From Spiroplasma sp. BIUS-1 (lineage in GTDB: Bacteria > Bacillota_I > Bacilli_A > Mycoplasmatales > Mycoplasmataceae): a stretch of DNA of 64,000 nucleotides. Positions within the stretch are counted from its first letter, which is position 1; every line of letters begins with the position of its first letter. Shown piece after piece: positions 34,539-44,973 of the stretch. The notes beneath the pieces were generated by a model that searched no databases, was not told the DNA's origin, and saw nothing but the letters and a program-made list of their open reading frames with translations. Made by a program: the position numbers and the translations under genes. Location: contig NZ_CP048386.1 of the NCBI RefSeq assembly GCF_010365805.1, forward strand, positions 310,001-374,000, written 5' to 3'.

Positions 34539-34567
34539 AAAAATCGCAATTATTTGCGATTTTTTTA
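34538..34567. terminator. Bidirectional terminator between convergent genes
   Basis: AAAAATCGCAA pairs with TTTGCGATTTTT. A/T runs on both sides let it serve both strands. It overlaps the lipoprotein stop codon. Confidence 0.85.
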
Positions 34568-37069
34568 AACTCTTTTAATAGAAGTAACTTTTCAATCAGT
34601 GCTATCTATATTTAAATTTAATTTTACTTCATAATTAAATGATTTATGTGTTTTTGGATCTGTGTAAGTGGTTACATAAGTAATACCCGCTTCAACATTT
34701 CCTTCATCAATTCCATAATAAGATTTAACTTTTGTTTTAAAGTTTTTGCTTTGAATTAATGTTTTATATACTTTGTTTGAAACATCTTTTTTAACATTAT
34801 TTACATTAGCAAATCCTTTTACTATTTGATCTAATAAGCTATCGATAGATTTGTCATCTATTATATTTTTTAAACCTAATAATAGAGAATTATCTCTAAA
34901 TGCTGTGTTTATTTGTTTTCCGTTTTCATCAAAATCTGTTCCTAAAGCACTCATTGCAGCTTTAGAACCTTTAACTTTATTGTTTTCTTTGCCATCAATT
35001 GAAATATAAATTCCTTTTGCATTTGAAGCAACCATTAATACTTGTAAAGCTGTGTATCCATCTTTTTCTTCATAAGAAAGAGGGTTGTGTTCTGTTTTGT
35101 TTTCTCCTTCGCCATAGTACATTTTGTATTTGTTATAAACTAAAGCGCTTGAAATGTCTTGTAAACCTTTTGCAAGTCCTGTTGATTCTTCTTTAAGTTT
35201 TTTATATCTTTGAGTATTTGAACTAGAAGAATTTATTGCATTGTAAATTAATTCCATAATTTCTGAAATTGTTTTACCTTTATAAACAGGACCTTCAAGT
35301 ATTGTTTGAAGAGATATGTTTTTATCTCCTCCGATAATGTCTTTTAGCATTGTTGAATCTTTACTTCATAATGCATCTCAGGCGTTTTTCATTATTTTAA
35401 TTGATTCATTAGATAGGGTGAATGGTAGTTTTGCCCCAAATGTTTCCAATAAACCTTGTATCCCACTTATATCCTTGTTTAATATTATTTTGTCAATAAG
35501 CGCTTTGAAAATGTTTCCTACATGGTTGGGTCCAACGCCCGCTACATTTATTTTTAAAAAAACAGCAATACCATTACCTATAGCAAAAAGGAGTGGTGAC
35601 AATCCTTCTTGACCTCCATAATTGAGTCCTAAAGTAAATGCTGAACCTATTAATCTCGCAATCCAAGCAGCTGTAGATTCTGTATAAGATAGATCTATTC
35701 TACCATCGTTTGTACCGGCACTTTCAAATAAAAGTGCAAATAATTTTATAAGATTATATCCATTTTCATCAGAAGTTAAAGATATTCTCAAATTATTTAT
35801 TAAAATCTTTGTGCTAAAATTATGCTTGTTAAAACTTTCATTTCCTAATTTAATTAAGAAATCCTGATTCCTATTTTTTTTAATAGAATTGTTATCAAAT
35901 AAATCTTGATTATTTTGTGCAACATTTGTTTCAAAATCAACACTTGTTATTCTTTGTAAAATTCCTGCAACTACAAATAAAATATCAGGAATTATTGTGA
36001 TTATATTTGAAGTGTTAATATTAGACATATTCTTAAAGAATCCCGCCATAACTTCTCCAAATTGTTTTTCAAAGTTATAATCAACATCTTTATATAATTC
36101 ATCTTTATCTGTTATTACTTTATCGTTTTGTCCTGAAAGAGTAGCGAATATATTGTAAAGTCTTTTGTTTGTAGCATTCATAACTTGCTTGTTAGTCATG
36201 TTTTGTTTATTGTCCATTGTTAAAATTGAATTAACTAATGTATCTAAAAGAGGGGTTAATATATCAAAATAGTTTAATAATTCTAATAAACCTGTTATTA
36301 AAGGTAAGAAATTAATAGAAGAAAGAGTTGACATTATTCCATCTAATAAAGATGTTTTTCCTTCTTTTAGATCATTTAAGAAATTAATGTTTAGTAAATT
36401 TGATATTGCACCATATGCAAAATTTGATTTTGATAAAGCTTTTATCAAGATAGCTAATGGTTCTGAAGCACTGCTTAAAATGCTTGAAATACCTTCCATT
36501 TTATCTTTTGAAACACTACCAATACTACTTTCTGATAAAGGAAGTTGTCCTAAAACACCTTCTAATAAACCTGATATGCTTGGATTAATTCCACCATTTG
36601 ATTTAATAGCACTTATAACTAAAGTTAACATGCTACCAATTGAATCAGCTGGTCCGTTTGGTGATTTAACTTTATCTGTTAAAAATTCCTTATCTGAATA
36701 ACTAGCGTTTGAAGGGTGATCTCAATTATTAATATCTTTTCTATTAAATCCTTGTTTTCCAAAATAATTATTTTTTAAAGACCCAACTGTTGTTTGGTTA
36801 TCTGTTTTAAAACCTGGCATTAAATCGTTTGCTTTACTTGAACTTATCAAACCATATAAATAGTCTGCATCGTATGGAAGTCCATCATTTAGTTCTTGAC
36901 TTGCGTTTTGAATCATTACTCCACGTAAAACTGTTGAAGAAACGTTTGTTAGATTATTAACTTTATTCTTAATTGAAGTTAATTTATTGTTAACTGTACT
37001 ACAACTTGCAACACTTGCTGTTGAAGCTGTAATAGATATTATTCCAAGTATGGAAATTAGCTTTTTCAT
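34565..37069 (-). CDS. Large surface lipoprotein, paralog A, 834 aa
   Basis: The N-terminus is a Mollicutes lipoprotein signal: MKKLISILGIISITAS, then a lipobox with Cys23 (SVASC). The mature protein would be anchored in the outer leaflet of the membrane. The rest is Asn/Ser/Leu-rich with long helical repeats and a C-terminal beta segment (ITYVTTYTDPKTHKSF). It is clearly paralogous to the adjacent gene at 37187-39610 at both ends: LRG-QNASQ near the N-terminus, KGSKAAM-ALGTD and SIKR/K near the C-terminus. It resembles the Mollicutes paralogous lipoproteins called MOLPALP in some annotations; I am fairly but not fully sure. Function unknown. TGA Trp codons join all fragments. Confidence 0.88.
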
Positions 37070-37163
37070 TTTCCCGACTACTCCTGTTCACTCTTAAAAA
37101 AATTATATAATAAAAATGTAAAAGAGTTTTTATTATTATAAAATATTTTACTAAAATAGGGGA

Positions 37164-37188
37164 TAAAAAAAGTCTTTGATAAGACTTT
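37164..37188 (-). terminator. Terminator of lipoprotein paralog B
   Basis: AAAGTCTT and AAGACTTT form the stem. On the minus strand it is followed by T residues and overlaps the stop codon. Confidence 0.75.
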
Positions 37189-39610
37189 ATATTTTTTTAA
37201 TTGAATTTATTTTTCATGAATTAGCGTCAGTTTTAAGTATTAATTGTATTTCATATACATAATTTTTATTTGTAAAAGGATCAATATAGGTGGTTTTATA
37301 TGTTATGTTTTGTTCTTTGTTTGCTTCATCAATGTTGGAGTGACTTACTAATTTAGTTTTAAAGTTTTCATCTTGAATAAGTTTTTTATAAACGCTATTA
37401 GATACACCATCATTTATTTTTTGAATATCTGTAAACGCTTTTTCAACATCATCTAAAATTCCTGTTGTTATTTGATCATCAAATATATATTCAACCCCAG
37501 CTAAAATAGAGTTTTGTCTAAATTTGTTTGTTTGAACTCCATTCGAAGAATAATCTGTTCCTAAAGCGTTCATGGCCGCTTTAGAACCTTTAACGTTTTC
37601 ATTTATCTCATTGTCACCATTTTTTAAATAGACGCCATTTTTGCTAGAAGATATAATAAATGCTTGTAAAGCGTTGTATTTTTTATACTGACTTTCTAGA
37701 GGTACAAGAACTCCTTTTTCTTTGTATCAAAGAGTGTAATTGTCTTCTTTAAGTGAATTTGAAAGGATATTTAATCCTGTTTTCATTTTATCTCCATTAT
37801 TTTCTTGTTCATTTCCGCTAGAAACTATATTTTCATAAATTAAATTGATAATTTCTGAAATTTTCAAACCAGCTATTACTGGGTTGTCGAATAGTGAAAA
37901 TAAACTAATTTGTTTTCCTGTTATGTCTTTTAATAGAGTAGAATCTTTATCTCAAAGAGCATTAAAGAAGTGTTTTAATTGTCTTGTTGAATTGTCACTT
38001 ATTTTTATATCTATTTCAATTCCAAGACCTTTTATTATTTCGATGACTTCTCTTAGCCCGCTTAAGTCGGAGTTGAATCCTAAACCATCTCCAATAACTC
38101 ATCTAAGAAGGTTACCTATTTGATCTCCACCAATTCCAAAGAAACTTCATCCCTTTCAAACAGCTATTCCTTTACCTATTCCATATAGCAAAGAAGAGTA
38201 ATTGTTTTTTTGATTTTGCCCAATAAATGGTGAAGAAATTTTTGATATTAATGAAAGCATATTTATGTTCTCATCAATATTTGTCACTTTTTCTCCTGAA
38301 TTGAATAGCATATAAAATAGTTTTTGAAGTTGTTTTCCGTTTTTGTTTAAATTTGTATCTGTAATGGTTTTAAGATTTTTAAGCAATATTTCTGTTTTAA
38401 AAGGAACTGCTTTTAATGTTTTTTTATTTAATTCACTTAAAAAGTCATTATTAGATTGAGAAGAGCTAAATAAGTTTTCATCACTTATGGGATCATATTG
38501 AGAAAAATCAATAGAAGAAATATATCTTAAAAAACCAGCTATAACAAATAGTAAATCTTTTATGTTTTCAGGTACTTCTAAAATAGGGGTAATAACAGAT
38601 TTAAAATCTGTTATTTTTGAATCATTGCTCAAACTTTTTAAGAACTTTCCTATTACATCTCCTAAATTTTTATCGAAATTTTTTACTAAATCAGAGTAAA
38701 TTTTATTATCTGCTATTATATTTTTATCTTGACCAGAACTTCTTGCAAAAATATTGTTAACTCTGTTTAAAGAAGCGTTTAAAATCATTTGACCTGTAAG
38801 TTCATCTTGGTTTTTATCCATAGTCAAAATAGTGTTTACTAGTAAATCAAGAACTTTGTCAAAGCCTTCAAAGTTAGTTTCATCAATAAAGTTTTTTACT
38901 CCTTTTAAAATTTCTTCTTGATTTTTTTCTTTTACAGCATTTTCAAATTCAGAATTAAAGAAATTCTTTAAAACTGAGTAAAATGCATTTGAGTTTTGTA
39001 AAAAACCAAGAGCATTTGTTAAAGGAACAGCTAACTTTCCAATTAGATCTGCAATTGGATTTATTGTTTCTGGGTTTAATTTTTCTGCTAAATCATCATT
39101 TAATCCAAGTTCAGGAATTACTCCTTGAATTAAACCTGATATACTTGGGTGAATTCCACCATTAGTTTTTAAAACACTTGAAATTATTACAAAAATTGCT
39201 GACACTTTGTCTAAAGAACTTTTTGGTGATTTAACGCTATCTGTTAAGAAATTATTATTTAAATCGTTGTTTATAGCATTTCTGCTTAAATCTTGATTAT
39301 CAAAATATGTTTCGTGTAAATGACTTATTCTTGTTTCACCATCAGTCTTTATTTTTGGTGTCAAATCATTTGCTTTTGAATTTCCTATTAAATCATTCAA
39401 ATAATTTGAGTCGAATGCTAGTTTTGATGCATTGTCCTGACTTGCATTTTGAACTATACTTCCTCTTAATAGAGTAGAAGAAATATTCATTAAGTTTTCA
39501 ACTTTATTCTTTATAGATTGTTTTTTCAAATTTACCATGCTACAGCTTGTTACACTAAAAGTAGAAGCTGTCATACTTATAACACCTAACATAGTCAATA
39601 ACTTTTTCAT
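37187..39610 (-). CDS. Large surface lipoprotein, paralog B, 807 aa
   Basis: The N-terminus has the Mollicutes lipoprotein signal MKKLLTMLGVISMTAS and a lipobox ending in Cys23 (SVTSC). It is paralogous to the next gene on the same strand (34565-37069). Shared features are the SIKNKV-NL segment after the lipid Cys, NGGI-PSISGL near residue 150, VNTILTMD near 260, and a C-terminal ITYKTTYIDPFTNKNY segment. I checked the 37574-38155 stretch codon by codon; only TGA (Trp) interrupts it, so the gene is intact. Ribosome site GGGGGA. It diverges from the giant permease gene, and its 5' region carries a TATAAT at 39637-39632. Function unknown; surface exposure is inferred. Confidence 0.9.
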
Positions 39611-39652
39611 TTTTATCCCCCGATATGTTTTATTATATTTTTTAATTATGGT

Positions 39653-39708: not shown

Positions 39709-39737
39709 TTGAAAAAAAAAAAAAAAAAATCTATAAT
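39709..39737 (+). promoter_or_regulatory. Permease promoter with poly-A spacer (candidate phase-variable)
   Basis: TTGAAA (39709-39714) and TATAAT (39732-39737) are exactly 17 bases apart. The spacer is 15 A followed by TC. The A tract as a whole is 18 bases (39712-39729) because three of its A are in the -35. Gain or loss of an A would change spacing and promoter strength. Confidence 0.78.
39712..39729 (+). repeat. Homopolymeric A18 tract
   Basis: Eighteen consecutive A residues, the longest homopolymer I noticed in the window. Confidence 0.97.
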
Positions 39738-39768
39738 ATTAAAATGATTCAAGTCGGGAATGAAAAAA

Positions 39769-42700
39769 ATGAAAAAGTCGATTTTTTTATACTTAAAACA
39801 AGGTGTAAAAGGTGTATTGAAGTTCAAAATACAATTCATTGTAATTGTTATTTTGAGTTTTTTAGCTACCTTTATTTTAAGTACTTCTTTATCTGCGACA
39901 AGCAGATTAAAAAATGACTATAACCAGACAATGTCTAAAATGGACCCTTTTAGTTATGTTTCTCAAACAACTGTTGGTACTGAAACTTCAGAAGATGCAT
40001 CTACAAATATAATGGCGCCAATGGATATTTTAAATAATCAATTTTTATATGTGAAAGATTCGACAGATCCAAGTAGTAAGCTCAATAATAAAGCGATTGA
40101 GCTAAATTATAATTTAAGCAGTTTTGAAGGTCAACCAGGCTACGACGAAACTTTTTTAACAAAAACATTTAAAGATACAACAGTTCAATCAGATTTTTTA
40201 AAAATGTTAGAAGATAAAGAATTTTGAGGCACTATTTTTGATTATCAATACGATGCAAAAAATGATAAAGTGACCTGAAATCCATATGGTGTGGTTGGTG
40301 CTGCGGATGACTCTTCAAGTGTTTATCTTTCTGGTAAAGATGATAATTCTAAAATTAAAATTTTTTACACAAACACAATTGAAGTTTTGAAAGAAAATTA
40401 TTTAGAAGACTTGTTTAAAACTGAAAGAACACCTGATTATTTAAAAAATACTTTATTTTATGAATTAAAAAATAAAGGGATAATAACAATTGATAATTTT
40501 AAAATAAATGGTAACAATATAAAGTTAACTGATGAACAAGATCGTGATATTTATAATAGGTATCTTTATTTTTCTCTTGAAACATTTTTAAGACAACTTA
40601 TAAAAGCAGCTACAGAATATCCTATTTACTGAATTAATAAAGCTATTTCTTTTGAAGGCACAACTAAGGATAGAGATTCTGTTGTTACTTCATTTAATAA
40701 AAATAAAGAAAAAGTAGGATTTGAATTCTTAACTGATGAATCAACACAAAAAACTCAATTCGCATCAACTATTTTTGCATGAATTTTTGGTATGGGACCA
40801 TCAATTGAAGAATATAAAATTAAGGATGACAATGAAGTTGCTAAAAAATTTTTAGTAGAGAATGATGAAAAACCATGATCTAATAACATAGATTTGTCTA
40901 ATCCAGAAGGAAACTTCTTATCAAGTAAAGATGAAGTTTTTGAAAAGGGTATGAGAGGAAGTTTTTCTCAAATTATTACTTCTAAGGATAAAAGTGGAAA
41001 TATCACAAGTTTAAGCAAAACATTTAACACAAATTACCTTAGACATTACGAAAAAGAAGGTATAGAGTCAAAAGTTGGTAGTGGAACTAGTTTTACTGAT
41101 TTAGATTATTATACAGAATATACATATAACAATATAAAACCAGCTAGAGCATACTTTATGAAACAAGAATTATTGGCTCAAGCAATGGGGTTTGACTATA
41201 AACCAAGAGCTGAAGTTGAATATACAGACAATATAAGTGAAGTAACTTATAGAATTGTTGATGTTGAAAGTCAATGAAAAGATGATTTAACTTTATATGA
41301 AGGTAATATGCCAAGAACAGGAAATGAAATCCTTTTAAATGCTCAATATGCAAAATCAAATAAATATAAATTGGGAGATAATATTAAAGTTGGAGGAAAT
41401 AACTTTGTTATTTCAGGATTTGCATCAGAGCCATTAACATATTATCCAATGGCAAATACAACAAATCCTTTACCAAATAGTAAAAAAAGTGCTATTGTAT
41501 ATGCTAATAAAAGTGCTTTAGACAAAATAATAACAAGCGACTTGTCTAAAACTGCTACAAAAACAATGTATTCAATTATCACTTATAAAGACAAAGAAAA
41601 CAAAACAAATATGACAAATGATTTGAATAAACTAAGAGCATATTCATTTACAAATATGGTTGAAGTATATAATTCTTATAATTTTGTTTCAAAAACTACA
41701 AATGAATTAAACGAATCAGAGTTAATTCAACATTACTCTGCTTTTGAAAGTAGTAATTTAAAATTAAACTGAACAATAGCTCCACAAATGATTTCTGGAT
41801 TTAAAATAGCTTCAATAATTTTCTCTGTATTAATATTTGCAATAACAATAGTTGCAACTATTGTAGCTGTTAAAAAAACAGTGCAATTAAATGCAGGAGA
41901 AATAGGTATTCTAAAAGCAATGGGTGCTGGAACTGGTGAAATTTCATCTTCATATTTATCTTATGGTGTTATAGTTGTTCTTTGTGTTGTTCCTTTTGCT
42001 TGAATATTAGGATCTGTAATTCAAGAGTTTTTAACTAAAGTCTTTTTACAATTTGCAGGTGGGCAGTCCAATTTAATAATATTTAGTCCGATTGCACTTA
42101 TAATATCTGTTGCAACATTTGGAGTTCTGTTATGTGCAATTTCTTTTGCAACAGCATTTAAGTTAGTTAAGAGACCAACTTTAGAAATCATGAATAAAGT
42201 TGAAAGAGTAAAAAGAATAGAGTGAATGGATAAAACTAAAAACTGAATCACTAGAAAAAGATCATTTTCTTGAAAATTCAGTTTAGAGTTAGCAATATCT
42301 GGTTTTTCAAAAACAATTGCATCTGCTGTGACGGTGTTTTTCGCAGGTTTCCTAGTATCTTTTGGTCTAACTGTACCTGGTTTAGTTCAAAATGTTGTAG
42401 GAAGTTATTATAAAAATGTTAACTATTCTAACTCTATAGAAAATAGAGACTTAATAGGTAATGCTCCGCTTGCAAAAACATCATTGCAAGCAACAAAAGA
42501 AGTAGATGAATATGAAAAAAATTTATTTGACAGTAAAAATATCTTTGGAAATGGAATTAGCAAGATTTCTAAAAATGTCACTGATTTTTCATCAACAACA
42601 GATTCTTCTGCAATTCCTCAAATACTTTTATCTCAAGGAACAAATGGAAATGATTTGACTGCTAAATGGGTTTATGAAACTATTCAAGGAGTTTCATCTG

Positions 42701-44973
42701 AGCAAAGTTTAGCAAATGATAAAGATCAAAACTCTTTAATTGCTATTATTGCAAGTTTACTTGGTAACAATATAAGTCAACTTGTCGGAAAAGGTATACA
42801 AATAGCTGATATTCAAAAAATTATTGAATGAATTATCCACTCTGATGTATATGGAACAGGCGAAAACCAGTCAGAAAGAGTTAAAAAAATTGATGAAGTA
42901 TCAGGGTTGTTGACAAATGGTCTTCCAGCTTTATTAACAAACTTTATAAATGGTTCTTCAACATCAGAAGGTGATTGAAAAGAGCAAATAATAAATATTA
43001 TTATTTCTCAAACTCCAGCTTATATAAAACAATATGTTACAAAATCTGAGAATAGACTAAACAACTTCCAATTTGGATGACAAATAAACAAATACATACC
43101 TGGAGTAGACAATGTTTATACAAATTTAAATGTAATTGGAAAAAACAATAAAAATGTTCAAATTACAGGTCTTCAAAATACACAAAATGCTTTTAATATC
43201 TCAAAAGAAGTGAGTGATAAAACATTTATGAATGATTATCAAGCTCACTTAATTGAAAGATTGATAAAAGGTGATAAAACTCTAACACCAGATGAATATT
43301 CATCAATTTCAAACTTTTATCATGATAAAAATTTAGTTATACCAGTTGTTTCAAATGATCAAGCAGATTTCAATTTAGATTCAAACTGAAATAACTTAAC
43401 TAATCCTAGAATCAATAAATCTAGATTAGTTTTAAGAAATGGAAATATTAATATACCAAATCAAGCTTGAATGTATGATGATGGTGACTGAATGAAATAT
43501 CAAGATCCAAGCTATAGAGATGCCCAAAACAATGGTTATATTGAAATGGATAATTTATCTGCAAGTAGATTTACTTATGCGCCTATTTTTGAACAAACCG
43601 GATTTAATCTAGCAAAAAATGATGATTTAAAACTAAAAAACAATGCGTATGGTTTTTATGACTTGCAATCTGAATGGACTAAAGATGGAGAAAAACTTGA
43701 ACTTAACGTTAGACCTTATTATTCATATGATAATGTTACAATGTTCTTCCCTGAAAAATATTATTCAATGTTTGAAAATTTAATAAATAAAGGTAACGTA
43801 GATAAAACTCAATGATTTCAAAAAGATGCGACTTCTTTTGTTCCTGAAGCTACAAAAAAAGCTTGAGAAAAAACAAACGGAATAAGTCCAACTTCTAAAT
43901 ACTTTGCAATAAAACCTTATTCTTACTACTTTGACTCTTCTGGAAATTACGCTAGAGAATCAGAAAACTTATCAGGAACACCTGTTAACTATATAACTAA
44001 AGGTTTAGAAAATTTTTATTCTAGAACTTTAAGGGATATAGAAGGGCCAATTGGTTTTGGAAGTGCTGACTTAAATTGAACTAATGACAATATTAAAAAT
44101 ATTACATTTAAAAGAGTTGGTACAATAGGGGTTTATGGAAATCCAATTGTAATTGCAGATCAAAACATCGTAAACCTTCTTAGTGGTTATGGTATTTCTA
44201 AATATGTACCATTTAATATGCAATATGAAGAAAAAGTTTCAGGTAAATATACTCTAAATGGAGTAGAAATACAAACATACAAATATCGTGATCCAATTGA
44301 GTATGTTACAGATACAAAAACTCAAAAATGAGGTCAAGACAAACTTGTTTTTGGTCAAAACGATCATCAAAGAAGTATAAGACCAAGCAATTGGTTCACT
44401 GGTGTTTATTCAAATGCTGTAGAACCTTACTTTATAACTTCACAAGCATCATTTTCAAGAAGTACAAAAGCAGGACAAGATACATTGAATGGCTCAAACT
44501 ACGGTTCAAGTTCACTAGAACTGAGAAGTACAAAATTGCTAAGTCAACAAAAAACATTGATTTTCCAATTATCATCAATAATTCTTACATTAGCTTCTAT
44601 TGCAATTTCATTAATGATAATTATCATGATACTTACAATTACACTTATAAATGACTTATATGTAAATCAGTATAAAAAATTCATGGTTGTTATGAAGTCA
44701 ATTGGATACTCAAACAAAAGTATTGTTAGATATACATTCTCAACAGTTACAGTTCTTTCTGGATTATTCTATATTCTGGGGGTGGCTACAAACTTTGCTG
44801 TTATATTGATTGTGTTTAACATAGTAAGTAAAAATATTGGATCGATACCATTTGGATTTACTTGATGAAGTCCAATATTGGCAATTTTATTAGTGTTTGG
44901 AGCATTCTTTGCTTCAATTGCAATTACAACTAGAAAAATTAGAAAAGAATCACCTTCAACATTAATGAATTAA
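39769..44973 (+). CDS. Giant FtsX/MacB-type ABC transporter permease, 1734 aa
   Basis: Two FtsX-like units are fused. Each has one leading helix, a large extracytoplasmic region (about 630 and 730 residues) and three further helices: helices near residues 18-40, 677-800 (three), 848-870, 1597-1630, 1655-1685 and 1700-1725. The cytoplasmic loop ELNAGEIGILKAMGA-type motif is present (QLNAGEIGILKAMGAG), and MVVMKSIGYSNKSI is its second copy. These are FtsX-domain hallmarks for coupling to an ABC ATPase, but none is adjacent. ATG 39760 is also possible but abuts GGGA; 39769 gives nine-base spacing. I read 42841-43500 and 43801-44530 codon by codon; only TGA interrupts. Probably exports or assembles surface lipoproteins; inferred from position. 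Confidence 0.9.

Follow-up and report, generated by a model that had tools for sequence, protein, structure and literature searches.

The permease locus and its promoter

The DNA examined here, referred to as the window, covers positions 310001-374000 (64,000 bases) of a single-contig Spiroplasma genome of 915,326 bases (G000). It contains the gene of a giant FtsX-type permease, two lipoprotein genes on the opposite strand and, in front of the permease gene, a homopolymer of 18 adenines (A18). The features of the locus, in window coordinates, are the following.

34565-37069, minus strand: second lipoprotein of 834 aa, assigned to the MOLPALP family (TIGR04547 match with 75.7 bits, exceeding the cut-off of 65)
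37070-37077, minus strand: leader motif TCGGGRR upstream of the second lipoprotein gene
37187-39610, minus strand: divergent lipoprotein, 807 aa, MOLPALP-like (TIGR04547 match at E 3.8e-14 with 52 bits, short of the curated cut-off of 65)
39616-39623, minus strand: leader motif TCGGGGGA of the divergent lipoprotein
39709-39714, plus strand: -35 box TTGAAA, which ends in the first three A's of A18
39712-39729, plus strand: A18 homopolymer, candidate slippage switch
39715-39731, plus strand: promoter spacer of 17 bases (A15 and TC)
39730-39731, plus strand: TC dinucleotide between A18 and the -10 box
39732-39737, plus strand: -10 box TATAAT (direct sequence reading and promoter scan)
39744-39768, plus strand: short 5' leader, the transcription start at about 39744 being predicted from the position of the -10 box
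39754-39761, plus strand: leader motif TCGGGAAT of the permease, common to the divergent lipoprotein gene
39769-44973, plus strand: giant FtsX-type permease, 1734 aa from the ATG at 39769 (genetic code 4)

The length of 1734 residues given in an earlier note on this DNA agrees with a start at ATG 39769, while an in-frame ATG at 39760 would give a protein of 1737 aa. A Pfam profile search assigned two stretches of the protein to PF02687 (FtsX; E 8.4e-20), and its hydropathy profile displays about 8 membrane segments (near residues 26-44, 686-704, 736-754, 778-796, 852-870, 1607-1625, 1668-1686, and 1706-1724) together with two extracytoplasmic domains, one of about 640 and one of about 735 aa. 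FtsX domains are combined with large extracytoplasmic domains, as in FtsX-type ABC permeases, and the large extracytoplasmic parts are backed by both analyses. The N-terminal region contains no cysteine, and thus lacks the lipobox cysteine of the vlp products of Mycoplasma hyorhinis.

Direct reading of the sequence confirmed that TTGAAA and TATAAT are separated by exactly 17 bases, 15 of which are A. The promoter scored 11/12 in the promoter scan and was the joint best promoter-like match within the surrounding 1 kb. A pure simple repeat is accordingly found between the -35 and -10 boxes, the arrangement that characterizes phase variation by promoter-spacer slippage. The run, whose length is taken from one assembly, is the sole A/T run of more than 9 bases in the window. 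Two other readings of the leader were rejected, namely a structured leader, as its predicted RNA fold was no better than those of shuffled sequences (z -0.11), and a known RNA element, as the window had no Rfam match.

Long A/T runs in the genome and the genus

The whole genome was found to carry 21 A/T runs with lengths of 17-27 bases and no run of 10-16 bases, while a simple geometric model derived from the window (GC 27%) predicts about 2 runs of at least 17 and about 415 of 10-16. The A18 of the permease is not a chance run. Runs of at least 16 bases occur in 18 of the 20 genomes of the genus, in which runs of exactly 14 are nearly absent, and many other genera of the order also carry long runs. 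Two genomes of the genus (G004 and G010) have no run of at least 16 and G019 has one, and other species present their own narrow range of run lengths, e.g., 15-17 in G015.

In G000 the long runs are intergenic or situated at gene starts. Many of them are T-runs on the sense strand directly after a hairpin and are therefore terminator tails, while a smaller part are promoter spacers. Since most tracts follow hairpins or lie away from any -10, long runs evidently also arise without a promoter role. Furthermore, when three relatives (G012, G013, and G007) were compared, at least one of them carried a run in the corresponding intergenic region for 18 of 20 tract loci, with a looser match at 508014 and none at 455090 and 599667, indicating that positional persistence is not special to promoters. 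At some of these places an A-run in one species corresponds to a T-run in another. At one locus a T18 is joined directly to an A21 (L054:4528-4566, genome 675527-675565), forming an A/T palindrome beside a gene start; similar T-A junctions were seen in G001, G002, G007, G012, and G015.

The mismatch repair background was also considered. A profile search for one family, MutS_V, had no match in G000 and matched 11 of 14 control genomes; it appears that G000 is devoid of MutS-type mismatch repair, a background that, as judged by this single search, permits slippage. In addition, G015 has eleven near-identical repeat copies, seven with T15 and four with T16, which shows a one-base length change between copies, in assemblies that may miscount such runs. 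These repeats (L147-L178) are spaced about 1.25 kb apart and are probably a mobile element; in one kind, the run stands behind TTGAC or TTGC and is promoter-like.

These observations bring up neutral expansion, according to which, where mismatch repair is missing, intergenic A/T runs past a threshold would lengthen until an equilibrium is reached and would then be maintained, and the run of the permease would be in a promoter by chance, with no selected switching and possibly some noise. The gap in the length distribution suggests such a mutational attractor, and the many runs in terminators, likewise kept, together with the persistence of 18 of the 20 loci, are in line with it. We nevertheless regard this explanation as unlikely, on account of how the runs are placed relative to promoter boxes.

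The promoter layout as a class

A layout was defined, after the data had been seen, by a TTG no more than two bases ahead of the run together with a -10 that follows the run within about six bases. In the A sense it was found at 10 of 103 long runs and at 9 of 1118 short intergenic runs of 6-9 bases (odds ratio 13, p 6e-7), and in the T sense at 10 of 103 and 10 of 1118, respectively (odds ratio 12, p 1e-6), counts that pool several genomes and include orthologues, which are not independent. For this reason G000 was also counted alone, and the layout was present at 5 of its 21 tracts vs. 0.36 expected (4 without the tract of the window). A -10 adjoining a long A-run was by itself not enriched, and the idea that every long tract has a promoter role was discarded on this ground and on that of the many tracts following hairpins. 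The promoter-spacer tracts of G000 are shorter than the rest (mean 18.0 vs. 21.7, Mann-Whitney p 0.016), as would be expected if spacing matters. Both the over-representation of the layout, against short runs as well as within G000, and the shorter spacer tracts argue against neutral expansion, and so does the retention of the run between intact boxes in several species, described below.

The five layout loci of G000 are listed here with their run and spacer length.

Giant permease: A18, spacer 17
241-aa gene ahead of a paralogous giant permease, in the operon of the latter: T20, spacer 22
C5 DNA methyltransferase with a neighbouring restriction gene: A18, spacer 19
Lipoprotein-like protein, 593 aa, VVACG motif: T17, spacer 14
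Short-chain dehydrogenase: T17, spacer 14

A small membrane protein encoded with a PTS gene also presents the layout in G012 and G013, the TTG being absent in G000. The products behind the layout include FtsX permeases, a lipoprotein-like protein and a C5 methyltransferase whose gene adjoins a restriction gene, with a PTS permease added in relatives, and they are of a kind that suits phase variation. The methyltransferase locus is arranged as follows.

L051:9399-10661, minus strand: C5 DNA methyltransferase
L051:10694-10711 (genome 577693-577710): tract before the methyltransferase, TTGC-A18-CAA-TAAAAT
L051:10724-13759, minus strand: adjoining restriction-type helicase/nuclease gene

The run of this promoter is A17 in G007 and A16 in G015, and the two genes are a candidate for a phase-variable restriction-modification system. 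A scan of named GTDB contigs for TTG-A15+-TATAAT, which serves only to show rarity as near relatives are possibly absent from them, returned 23 matches, many in metagenome-assembled contigs and none in a record named Spiroplasma.

The permease promoter in related species

An A-run was found in the same promoter spacer of the permease in G000 and in five other Spiroplasma genomes, whose run-bearing orthologues are 38-63% identical to the query at the protein level, G012 being the nearest relative by this measure. Their promoters read as follows.

G012: TTG-A19-CC-TATAAT, spacer 18
G013: TTG-A17-C-TATAAT, spacer 15
G015: TTGT-A16-C-TATAAT, spacer 15
G008: TTG-A16-C-AATAAT, spacer 14
G006: TTGAC-A16-G-TAAACT, spacer 16

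The -10 box begins 1-2 bases past the run in four orthologues, and the TAAACT of G006 lies one base past it. Among the orthologues the run varies from A16 to A19 and across the six species the spacer varies from 14 to 18 bases, i.e., the repeat is kept at the locus while its length changes, a comparison made between species with one genome each. According to general promoter rules a spacing of 17 bases between -35 and -10 is optimal, and five of the six permease spacers deviate from it.

The run is absent from the permease orthologues of G002, G014, G016, G018, G001, and G003, and G007 possesses two permease copies, in one of which a hairpin is immediately followed by a T18 that lies upstream of the -10. 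On the gene tree of the permease family the run trait needs at least three changes, and it has therefore been either long kept or repeatedly gained. Outside the genus, no run of at least 10 bases was found upstream of those permease homologues from other genera for which upstream sequence was at hand, and a scan of named GTDB contigs for the permease returned no confirmed relative.

The permease orthologues of G015 (spacer 15) and G008 (spacer 14) are broken by stops or frame changes. As the gene of G013 is intact despite a spacer of 15, the association between a short spacer and a broken gene is only suggestive. The A-run promoter is still present in front of the broken genes (L016, L020, and L030).

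The comparison between species also bears on two further explanations. In the first one the run would be a static element, a spacer whose stiff or bent DNA keeps expression at a constant level, with changes in length being incidental or purged. Long A-runs do alter the shape of DNA, and the run is kept in several species. However, a structural role needs no pure run of 16-19 bases, interspecies spacers of 14-18 are unlike stabilizing selection on one spacing, and T-runs take the same layout at other loci, which renders this explanation quite improbable. The second one, that the run acts mainly on the divergent lipoprotein gene or is the tail of a terminator, draws on the start of that gene being only 101 bases from the run and on the leader motif that it has in common with the permease. 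It seems to us very improbable indeed, since in six species the run is located between the -35 and -10 of the permease and not near the lipoprotein start, and since no terminator hairpin is present at the run, for which reason a terminator reading of A18 was rejected.

A probable slippage-driven switch of permease transcription

Taken together, it is likely in our opinion that A18 is both the spacer of the permease promoter and a switch of transcription operated by slipped-strand mispairing. The layout, its recurrence and its conservation across species with changing length are observed. Since relatives keep the run in the same promoter at different lengths, the permease is probably switched by slips in copying. 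We infer that slippage at this locus takes place in culture, that the -35 and -10 boxes are used and that the outcome is an ON/OFF effect. According to the proposed mechanism, replication would gain or lose A's in the run at a high rate, which the apparent absence of MutS-type mismatch repair would favour; TTGAAA and TATAAT would consequently be brought closer together or farther apart, and transcription of the giant permease would go up or down. With A18 and a spacing of 17 bases, the permease is predicted from general promoter rules to be ON in this genome. Points against the switch are the orthologues lacking a run, the five spacers that deviate from 17 and the long runs that arise away from promoters; tract lengths, moreover, are those of the assemblies and vary with their quality. 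The phase switch put forward in the earlier note gains from the run being kept in the same spacer in six species at varying length, from the recurrence of the layout and from the missing MutS_V match, though switching at this locus keeps the status of a proposal.

The permease promoter would in this mechanism be one member of a group of Spiroplasma promoters in which an A/T run forms the spacer. A more tentative extension, to which we give somewhat less than an even chance, is that such spacers across the genus are independent switches in this clade, acting not only on surface proteins but also on a repeated element and on the DNA methyltransferase belonging to a restriction system, that their tract length is kept in a narrow range, and that a population would accordingly be a mosaic of expression states.

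Relation to known systems

Control of spacer length by slippage in a sigma-70-type promoter is known from the phase-variable porA promoter of Neisseria, where the repeat lies between -35 and -10. The switch proposed here would share this control, while the base composition and the host group are different. In M. hyorhinis, a homopolymeric A-run is present in the promoter region of the vlp genes (Yogev et al., 1991; Citti and Wise, 1995, in PMC10502178). In both cases an A-run is located in the promoter of a surface-protein gene of a wall-less bacterium and its length is proposed to control transcription. However, the vlp genes are a family encoding repeat-bearing lipoproteins with observed switching, whereas here a single FtsX permease is concerned and switching is proposed from sequence; moreover, the Spiroplasma layout also uses T-runs, and its targets include a methyltransferase and a dehydrogenase. 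The vlp parallel drawn in the earlier note consequently holds for the promoter layout and fails for the gene. The mechanism would be an already known one (PMC10502178), at a gene that is not a vlp gene. In Mycoplasma mycoides SC, a dinucleotide repeat in the promoter spacer of vmm alters the -35/-10 spacing (Persson et al., 2002, in PMC10502178); the permease promoter is similar in having a repeat in the spacer that would change this distance, but the repeat is a single-base run and the gene encodes a permease instead of a variable surface protein.

Among the titles and abstracts returned by a full-text literature search, none dealt with phase variation by homopolymers in Spiroplasma, and a homopolymer promoter switch in this genus is apparently unreported. 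In two Spiroplasma genome papers, indels in homopolymers are regarded as likely or possible artefacts of sequencing (PMC12408004, PMC5034139). If the proposed switch is true, insect-associated spiroplasmas possess contingency loci comparable to those of the mycoplasmas of vertebrates, and transporters, lipoproteins and a methyltransferase are under their control; the loci reported here would then be a ready list for testing, and a warning that homopolymer indels may be real.

The leader motif of the divergent genes

The motif TCGGGRR is found just upstream of the permease gene and of both lipoprotein genes. A G-rich ribosome-binding site is one possible role of the motif, and a control signal common to these genes is another. 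The pattern TCGGGRRN{3,16}ATGAAAAA occurs 17 times in the 20 genomes of the genus, mostly at this divergent locus, where the occurrences are paired.
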